Source of the DNA: Thermomicrobiales bacterium
Lineage (GTDB): Bacteria; Chloroflexota; Chloroflexia; Thermomicrobiales; CFX8
DNA length: 42,616 bases
Direction: 5' to 3'
Assembly (NCBI GenBank): GCA_023954495.1
Contig: JAMLIA010000024.1
Coordinates: 1 to 42,616, forward strand
Shown here: positions 7,968 through 10,768 of the stretch, in pieces
Layout: every line of letters starts with the position of its first letter
How positions within the stretch are numbered: position 1 is the stretch's first letter
Made by a program: the position numbers and the translations under genes
The notes under the pieces: generated by a model
What the model saw: only the letters and a program-made list of their open reading frames with translations
What the model was told of the DNA's origin: nothing
Databases searched by the model: none

Positions 7968-9383
7968 TCAGCGCAACGTGCTCGGCAGGATATTCAGCTC
8001 GGCACGATACTTCGCGACCGTTCGTCGAGCGATCCGCACACCGCGGCGATTGAGCAGCTCAACGATGCGCTTGTCGGTCAACGACTGCTCTTCGTTCTCG
8101 ATCATCTCCTTGATCATGTCCTTCACGCTCAGCGACGGGGTAAAGAAGTCACTGAACGGAATGACCTGCCGAGTCGGGAGCATGACGTACTTGTTCGCAG
8201 TCGCTCGCGACACGGTCGACTCGTGAACGCCGACCTGCGTCGCAACCGTCGCGCGAGTAAGCGGTCTCAGCTTCCGCACACCACCGCGCAAAAAGTCCTC
8301 CTGCATATCCGCCACGCATCGCGAGATGCGTGCAAGCGTTTCGTGGCGCTGCTTGACGTTGCCGAGGAAGAGACGCGCACGGCCGACGTGGTCGCGGACA
8401 TGGCTGCGCGTCTCCGAATCCATGTCGCTCGACTTGCGGCTTGCCTGCGCGACCTTCGCCATCTGATCGTAGATGTCGTTCACACGCAAACGCGAGTAGC
8501 GCGATTCAACGACTTCGATGATCAGCTCACCGTCCTTGATGCTGATGACCACGTCGGGTGCGACGTACCCGTCCTCAACTGGCGATCGCCACTGTTGAGC
8601 TTCCTGCCGTTGCAGGGGAAACGGCGTCAAGCTACTGCGAATGTAATCGCGAGCCTCTTCGATAACGTCGGCTGTTACGCCGAGCTCGCGGGCGATGAGT
8701 CCGAACTTGTGACTGCCCAGGTCGTCGAGATGATGGTCGACAATTTCGAACACAGCTTCGGGAATGTCGGCGTCGTTTTCGGCCAGATAGCGCAGCTGCA
8801 AGAGCAGGCACTCACGCAGGTCGCGAGCCCCGACGCCGACTGGCGCTAGCGTCTGGATCGCCCCGAGCGCCTCTTCGATGTCCTGTGCCGTGGCATTGAA
8901 TAGCCGCGCGACGTCACGCAGGTTCGCGTCAACGTATCCGCGCTCGTCGAGTGAATCCAGCAGGTACTCGGCAATAGGCAGAAGGTCGCCGCCGATGAGT
9001 GTTGGCAAGTCAAATGCGACACGGTCTCGCGGACTGAGGTTGTCACCAACCAGCGTCATGGGGTCAAAGTCATCCGAATCATCGCGGGTGATCGACGCTT
9101 GATAGGCAATCTCAGGGTAGTCCTCCCAGGAGTCCTGCTTCTGCTGTTCTGCGTGATTGATCATGCAGGTGGCGCAGAACGTTCCTTCAAGGATCCCGCC
9201 GCAGCGTGGACAGATCTGTTCGTTGGATGCTTCGAGTGCGGGGTTCTCGTCAAGCTCCTGATTAATGACTGCTTCCAGTTCCTGCCGCGAGAGGCTCAGG
9301 ATGTAATTGGCCTCAATCAGGCTGGGGGAAATCCATTGTCGTTGTTCAGTAATGAGGTCATATCCGGCTTGCATACGTGACAC
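7968..9383 (-). CDS. rpoN: RNA polymerase sigma-54 factor with zinc-ribbon-like insert
   Basis: A 471-residue sigma-54. The N-terminal activator-interacting region is present (residues 1-50, with ILSLSRQELEAVINQELDENPAL). The core-binding region is in the middle, and the promoter-recognition region holds THE helix-turn-helix (VATQVGVHESTVSRATANKYV). The RpoN box ARRTVAKYRAELNILPS lies near the C-terminus. Unusually, residues 58-73 read CPRCGGILEGTFCATC, a CxxC-x8-CxxC arrangement that looks like a zinc ribbon placed where most sigma-54 proteins have an acidic, variable region II. Sigma-54 depends on AAA+ enhancer-binding activators; none is encoded in this window. The gene runs toward pyrB and is divergent from the CBS-domain protease gene. 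Confidence 0.95.
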   Translation of the reverse strand: MSRMQAGYDLITEQRQWISPSLIEANYILSLSRQELEAVINQELDENPALEASNEQICPRCGGILEGTFCATCMINHAEQQKQDSWEDYPEIAYQASITRDDSDDFDPMTLVGDNLSPRDRVAFDLPTLIGGDLLPIAEYLLDSLDERGYVDANLRDVARLFNATAQDIEEALGAIQTLAPVGVGARDLRECLLLQLRYLAENDADIPEAVFEIVDHHLDDLGSHKFGLIARELGVTADVIEEARDYIRSSLTPFPLQRQEAQQWRSPVEDGYVAPDVVISIKDGELIIEVVESRYSRLRVNDIYDQMAKVAQASRKSSDMDSETRSHVRDHVGRARLFLGNVKQRHETLARISRCVADMQEDFLRGGVRKLRPLTRATVATQVGVHESTVSRATANKYVMLPTRQVIPFSDFFTPSLSVKDMIKEMIENEEQSLTDKRIVELLNRRGVRIARRTVAKYRAELNILPSTLR

Positions 9384-9622: not shown

Positions 9623-10768
9623 GTGTTCGACAAGGTCATACCGCTCGGCAGCACCAACGGGATTCCGATCAGGGTGCATCCAACGTTTGCGCTCGTTTTG
9701 CTGTGGGTGGTGTACGAGTGGGGTATCCGCGCGCGTGGCGGCGTAAACGGCGCTGCATTTGGTCTGATTATTGTGCTGGTGGTGTTTTGCTGCGTCCTGC
9801 TCCACGAGCTCGCGCATGCCGTTGCAGCGCTCCGCTACGGGGTGCATGTCGAAGACATCACGCTGCTTCCAATAGGCGGAGTCGCGCGGTTCGAGTACAC
9901 ACCCCTCACGCCGCGGGCCGAGACGGTCATCGCGCTGGCAGGTCCAGCCACGAACATCGCTATCGCGCTGGCGCTTACACCATTCATCTTGATGATCTCC
10001 GCCATCCGTGCGGTTTCCGATCCAATCGACATCCTGCTCATTTCCAGTGAGCTTTCGCCGGCAGGGTTCATCCTGCAGCTCTGGCTGGCGAATATCCTGC
10101 TCGCGATCTTCAATCTCCTGCCAGCCTTCCCAATGGATGGCGGACGCGTGTTGCGCGCGTTCCTGGCGTCGTTTCGCAGCCGCCTCCAAGCGACCAGAAT
10201 CGCGGCAATCATCGGCGCTGCGCTCGCCTTGTTGATGGCGATTGGTGGCTTGTTGATTGGCGATTATGTGCTGATCCTGGTCGCTGTCTTCATCATTGTC
10301 TCCGCATCGATGGAGTTCCGGATGGTCGCGACCGAGATGTCACTTCGCGGTCTGCCGGTCGGCCAGTACGCGCTCTGGGACGGCGGCGGCGTTCAGCCGA
10401 ACGAAGCGCTGCTGACCGCCATCTCCGGAGGCCCGCGCGATGTCGTTGTCGTTGAGGACGGCGTCGTCGTCGGTATGCTCTGGCGGCGCGACATCATGGC
10501 CAACCAGACAAGTCGGCATCGTTTGCGCGTGGCGGACCTGATGGATGCGAACGTCCATGCTGTTGAAGCCGACGATTCGCTCTACGATGTCCATCAATGG
10601 TTGATGCTTGCGGACATCCCGGCCGTGCCGGTTGTCGAGAATGGGCGTTATCGCGGGGTGTTTACGACCGACCGCCTCTGGCACGTTTACGATCATGTTC
10701 AGAGTCGGCAATTTGCCTGGTATCGCTCGGGGATGCGTCTCCTGCGTCGGAGTCTGCGTCTTGCCTGA
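9623..10768 (+). CDS. M50 site-2 protease with C-terminal CBS domains
   Basis: An intramembrane metalloprotease of the SpoIVFB/Rip3 type, 381 residues. The zinc motif HELAH is at residues 61-65 inside a membrane segment (CCVLLHELAHAVAAL), and the third ligand region is NLLPAFPMDGGRVLRA. Two CBS domains occupy roughly residues 240-360 (RVADLMDANVHAVEADDSLYD is part of the second), which usually bind adenine nucleotides and tune the protease. The start is GTG at 9623 with CAGGAGA upstream. Its substrate is unknown; family members cleave membrane-bound transcription-factor precursors or anti-sigma factors. A second, shorter M50 protease lies 4 kb away. Confidence 0.9.
   Translation: MFDKVIPLGSTNGIPIRVHPTFALVLLWVVYEWGIRARGGVNGAAFGLIIVLVVFCCVLLHELAHAVAALRYGVHVEDITLLPIGGVARFEYTPLTPRAETVIALAGPATNIAIALALTPFILMISAIRAVSDPIDILLISSELSPAGFILQLWLANILLAIFNLLPAFPMDGGRVLRAFLASFRSRLQATRIAAIIGAALALLMAIGGLLIGDYVLILVAVFIIVSASMEFRMVATEMSLRGLPVGQYALWDGGGVQPNEALLTAISGGPRDVVVVEDGVVVGMLWRRDIMANQTSRHRLRVADLMDANVHAVEADDSLYDVHQWLMLADIPAVPVVENGRYRGVFTTDRLWHVYDHVQSRQFAWYRSGMRLLRRSLRLA

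Follow-up and report, generated by a model that had tools for sequence, protein, structure and literature searches.

The usual description of sigma-54 (RpoN) has a dispensable, variable linker joining two conserved regions. In canonical members of the family (TIGR02395; 8f1i, 7qv9, 9mse, 5nwt) region II is acidic and poorly conserved, whereas in the Chloroflexota it begins with an invariant four-cysteine ribbon, which is the subject of this analysis. The ribbon was noticed in the rpoN gene of a Thermomicrobiales bacterium of that phylum, on contig JAMLIA010000024.1 of assembly GCA_023954495.1; the 42,616 nucleotides analyzed (positions 1 to 42,616, forward strand) are hereafter called the window. 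Region I, the core-binding domain, the long helix, the RpoN box and the order of the domains are common to the canonical proteins and the window protein, as is a GAFTGA activator encoded in the genome.

The best-studied point of comparison is sigma-54 of E. coli, in which region I comprises residues 1-56 and region II residues 57-120, with its RII.1 portion situated in the downstream DNA channel (PMC7057263). An N-terminal element of sigma-70, region 1.1, is reported to be placed similarly to RII.1 (PMC7057263). In the available structures, the activator takes the sigma-54 N-terminus into its ring, unfolding the helix RI-H1 (PMC9770992, PMC12054792). The number of residues unfolded and the manner in which the reaction ends were named in 2022 as still to be addressed (PMC9770992), and the regulation of hydrolysis and unfolding was stated in 2025 to be unknown (PMC12054792).

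The product of the open reading frame at 7968-9383 of the window is a genuine sigma-54. It scores 302.7 bits against the full-length family model, for which the curated cut-off is 277.35, and the Pfam domains AID (PF00309), CBD (PF04963) and DBD (PF04552) are all found above their cut-offs and in that order. A structure-based alignment places it at approximately 27% identity to the solved sigma-54 chains, and its GTG start is preceded, 9 nt upstream, by GGAGGGAGGG. Residues 58-73 read CPRCGGILEGTFCATC, which contains two closely spaced CxxC knuckles (CPRC-x8-CATC). The initial annotation had recognized this motif correctly, along with its zinc-ribbon-like character and its place behind region I, but had positioned it at 9164-9211, one base off the codon span of 9165-9212. 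Only six cysteines occur in the whole protein (58, 61, 70, 73, 192 and 356), four of them in the ribbon, and a CxxC-x4-14-CxxC arrangement arose in just 8 of 200,000 shuffles of the sequence. This rarity, together with conservation of the cysteines across the phylum, rules out a chance motif. Contamination, a chimera or a species-specific oddity can likewise be rejected, as the ribbon is present in close relatives and in the phylum as a whole; one such relative (L036) has an RpoN 80% identical to that of the window.

The extent of this conservation was established from rpoN loci recovered from 158 genomes searched within the class and 400 within the phylum. A total of 181 loci were read, a count that includes the window locus and one relative entered twice, and 167 of these carry CxxC-x(4-14)-CxxC immediately behind the NPxL motif that ends region I, with a spacing of x8 in most. 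Among the 136 loci read first, 117 have a spacing of exactly 2-8-2, and the remainder have 2-(7 to 11)-2. The ribbon was found in 38 family-level groups of the genomes examined. In an alignment of 108 RpoN sequences, which reach down to 31% identity with the first sequence, the four ribbon cysteines are among just 30 invariant columns, an outcome contrary to the lack of conservation that the initial annotation had named as refuting its proposal. The surrounding stretch changes quickly: over positions 52-103 the commonest residue averages 32% outside the cysteines, and only G62 (93%) comes near invariance. That the ribbon is a neutral relic, an old insertion without function, is hardly credible given four cysteines held invariant in such a stretch over 108 divergent sequences, even though a few members of one subclade have lost it.

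The loci that depart from the pattern fall into a few groups. A CxxC..CxC variant occurs in five (L130, L202, L205, L206, L207), all of them second RpoN copies from one family (f23); the first was considered as a broken reading frame, an explanation rejected once additional paralogues showed the variant to be genuine. The ribbon is missing from five further loci (L064, L070, L226, L227, L228), all in families f6 and f9. Of the last four, L076 is a frameshifted assembly, L077 probably a contaminant, and L189 and L190 are divergent RpoN-like proteins. The probable contaminant, from a Chloroflexota bin (G471:C35), is a Proteobacteria-like rpoN whose nearest counterpart among those compared is that of Sphingobium, with a region I 69% identical. 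The two divergent proteins (f70 and f54; open frames of 369 and 371 amino acids) are short, lack both NPxL and ribbon, match the family model in their C-terminal half only and are possibly degenerate or repurposed sigma-54 factors.

The ribbon is set at a nearly constant distance from region I and at a variable distance from what follows. Of 135 sequences, 108 have a distance of 11 from NPxL to the first cysteine and the others have one of 13, 14 or 18 (standard deviation 1.1), while 16-53 residues separate the last cysteine from the conserved FDP motif ahead of the core-binding domain (standard deviation 8.5). Mean net charge is +0.3, near neutral, for the ribbon and -7.7 for the acidic stretch between it and FDP. 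AlphaFold2, run on the 108-sequence alignment, gave a predicted local distance difference test score (pLDDT) of about 80 over residues 51-80, with strands at 50-52 and 64-66, and values below 50 over 82-86, 92-109 and 111-114, which is most of 82-114; confidence was high across the core-binding domain. An isolated ribbon fragment of 41 residues was predicted at a pLDDT of 79.6. The near-fixed spacing to region I, the fold, predicted with moderate confidence, and the variable linker behind it, mostly predicted disordered, together argue that the ribbon is part of the region I module. By sequence and model it appears to extend region I as a folded element, with a flexible tether coming after it. 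The initial annotation had placed the module in the variable acidic linker; it does lie behind region I, but rather than being a simple linker insert it is predicted to be folded and nearly fixed to region I, with the variable acidic linker coming after it. The features of the gene are collected in Table 1.

Table 1. Features of the rpoN gene in the window, with residue numbers of its product.
Feature	Position	Strand	Basis or remark
rpoN, sigma-54 factor	7968..9383	-	471 aa, GTG start; TIGR02395 302.7 bits
Region I / activator-interacting domain (AID), NPALE at its end	9231..9347	-	PF00309; residues 13-51
Four-cysteine ribbon C58-x2-C61-x8-C70-x2-C73	9165..9212	-	residues 58-73; sequence and phylum-wide conservation
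Variable linker, rest of region II, mostly predicted disordered	9084..9164	-	low pLDDT; variable length
Acidic DDSDDFDP motif ahead of core-binding domain	9060..9083	-	D107 and P108 well conserved in alignment
Core-binding domain	8469..8978	-	PF04963
DNA-binding domain with RpoN box ARRTVAKYR	7971..8399	-	PF04552 and sequence

The gene divergent from rpoN, at 9623-10768 on the plus strand of the window, encodes a membrane protease of the M50 family that has a CBS domain.

Very probably, the module is a folded, structural zinc ribbon that belongs to region I and is joined to its C-terminal side, about where RII.1 starts in E. coli; the four cysteines would hold one Zn(II) in a Zn(Cys)4 site. 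Its job, at about even chances, would be to anchor region I, to limit the unfolding of region I, or both. As a rigid knob, the ribbon would hold the hook formed by region I in its seat within the closed complex. During threading and unfolding of region I by the activator ring, the next stably folded element would be the ribbon, which may define where pulling stops. In a more pointed form of this proposal, the AAA+ unfoldase would run into a zinc-stapled knot at residue 58 that serves as its built-in stop and fixes both the extent of unfolding and the release of the activator; this form is tentative and rather unlikely.

Several observations weigh against this interpretation. The E. coli factor works without a ribbon, and some members of one Chloroflexota subclade have lost theirs; because of these two facts, the basic mechanism does not require the ribbon. 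The nearest folds in the PDB are mitochondrial ribosomal chains, which we take to be bL32m, and despite a TM score of 0.61 and a root-mean-square deviation of 1.7 A the match is weak (E 0.9). Five ribbons tested against Pfam ribbon models all remained below cut-off, the best being DZR_2 at 19.5 bits (cut-off 27), with DZR at 16.1-19.3 bits (cut-off 27.3); the ribbon is too short for most of the curated models. Minimal zinc ribbons such as those of Nop10 and the bL32 family are likewise built of two short cysteine knuckles, and the Cx2Cx8Cx2C spacing shared with archaeal Nop10 speaks for the interpretation, but the similarity is weak and non-significant, the proteins and their functions differ and homology is not claimed.

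Other roles for the module can be considered. In E. coli numbering, the start of the ribbon corresponds approximately to that of RII.1, and the ribbon could be a folded replacement of RII.1 that contacts nucleic acid, either within the downstream DNA channel or at the bubble as it opens. The location of RII.1 in E. coli (PMC7057263) and the near-neutral to slightly positive charge of the ribbon are consistent with such a contact. Beyond the cysteines and one glycine, however, no ribbon residue is strongly conserved, which argues against a specific binding face, and the near-fixed link to region I fits only in part, making this role rather unlikely. A new contact of the ribbon with activator or polymerase, as raised by the initial annotation, is possible.

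The four cysteines might instead form a redox or zinc sensor, in which oxidation or loss of zinc unfolds the ribbon and alters sigma-54 activity. Hsp33 exemplifies such a Zn(Cys)4 switch, and the case for a sensor is confined to this chemistry and to the closeness of the four cysteines. Against it, retention of the cysteines in 38 family-level groups would be expected rather of a structural site, and no sensor partner or redox operon lies beside rpoN in the window, where the flanking genes are of the aspartate carbamoyltransferase type and the M50/CBS type. A sensor is thus quite improbable, and the earlier suggestion that sigma-54 activity depends on zinc level or redox state found no support here.

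A structural zinc ribbon could also serve the stability of RpoN. FlgZ (HP0958; DUF164, PF02591) is a zinc ribbon protein likewise tied to RpoN, and its ribbon cysteines are required for RpoN to accumulate (PMC3372290). The Chloroflexota ribbon might by analogy act as a chaperone in cis and shield RpoN from proteolysis, as the separate FlgZ does for RpoN of H. pylori; in keeping with this, a search of the host genome returned no FlgZ/DUF164 relative (PF02591). FlgZ, however, is a separate protein with a coiled coil and a CxxC-x18-26-CxxC motif (PMC3372290), as opposed to the x8 spacing of the ribbon in cis, and among 50 genomes tested, uncorrected for kinship, DUF164 proteins occur in 12 of the 33 that bear rpoN and in none of the 17 that do not. 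This limitation to rpoN-bearing genomes is in line with the published link between FlgZ and RpoN. A stabilizing role in cis is accordingly unlikely, and a strict replacement of FlgZ by the ribbon is unsupported, given that those 12 genomes have both a ribbon-bearing RpoN and a DUF164 protein.

The origin of the ribbon was approached with trees built on the part of RpoN downstream of it, the ribbon itself being excluded. All Chloroflexota RpoN tested form one clade with respect to those of Pseudomonadota and Bacillota (Shimodaira-Hasegawa-like approximate likelihood ratio test, 99-100), and the CxC-variant proteins form a clade of their own. In the first sample, ribbon state required a minimum of two changes, one gain and one loss; with extra ribbon-less sequences added the minimum rose to four, which fits one gain and three losses, and all inferred losses fall inside one subclade. 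These counts fit a single gain at the base of Chloroflexota RpoN. Phyla beyond the Chloroflexota were sampled only through plasmid, viral and PDB records. No ribbon cysteines were present in RpoN of Klebsiella, Aquicella, Sphingobium, Rhizobium, Acetoanaerobium or Lacticaseibacillus, nor in four viral-contig RpoN read through the N-terminus. In the search for ribbon relatives, a query with the N-terminal portion gave only weak rhizobial matches among plasmid records, and phage records yielded none. Because this outgroup sampling is narrow, confinement of the ribbon to the Chloroflexota is provisional.

A sigma-54 activator, which the initial annotation had proposed to look for elsewhere in the genome, is indeed encoded there: one strong NtrC-type response regulator of REC-AAA-HTH architecture with the motif GHEKGAFTGA (G000:C5:55824-56324; L001, L167). 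Across the same 50 genomes, a strong activator accompanies rpoN in 33 of 33, while 15 of the 17 without rpoN have none and the other two have weaker matches. A single activator is the rule in the genomes that have one. Since the activator co-occurs with rpoN, the sigma-54 system of the host looks intact. Most Chloroflexota tested possess a minimal enhancer system of one sigma-54 and one or a few activators. Consensus -24/-12 sites were not enriched in the host genome against a reversed control (41 vs 48, with at most one mismatch).

In several genomes the rpoN and activator genes adjoin, ribbon-less copies among them. Two of the latter (L168, L169) have as neighbors an activator of their own and a pair of stand-alone receiver-domain genes. 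In family f51 (L173, L174), rpoN, a probable sensor kinase and the activator stand in a row on one strand, an arrangement that resembles a self-contained operon. The activator gene lies downstream of a murA-like gene in three loci (L170, L171, L175), with rpoN nearby in two. A good -24/-12-like site just upstream of rpoN (L172:8929, minus strand) makes that gene a candidate sigma-54 target, and further candidate sites precede small membrane-protein genes that adjoin the activator (L173:10994, plus strand; L171:7725, minus strand).

In line with the initial annotation, the literature searched, from which subscription journals and preprints were mostly outside coverage, contains no account of a sigma-54 with a zinc ribbon, and the module appears undescribed in this family. 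Region 1.1 of sigma-70 is unrelated to it in sequence and is not known to hold zinc or to be pulled by an activator. The sigma-54 family thereby gains a domain variant, whose ribbon fold is itself ordinary. Its significance lies in its position: in one phylum, a module with invariant cysteines and a predicted fold comes right after the part of sigma-54 that is threaded and unfolded by the activator. The module offers a natural variant with which the limits on activator pulling can be tested, the subclade members that have lost it serving as natural controls. The ribbon further sets Chloroflexota RpoN apart as a separate lineage and calls for caution in transferring the E. coli model of region II to this phylum. 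If the ribbon were indeed a built-in stop, an entire phylum would have built into its sigma-54 the very termination step for which an explanation is reported to be lacking in E. coli.
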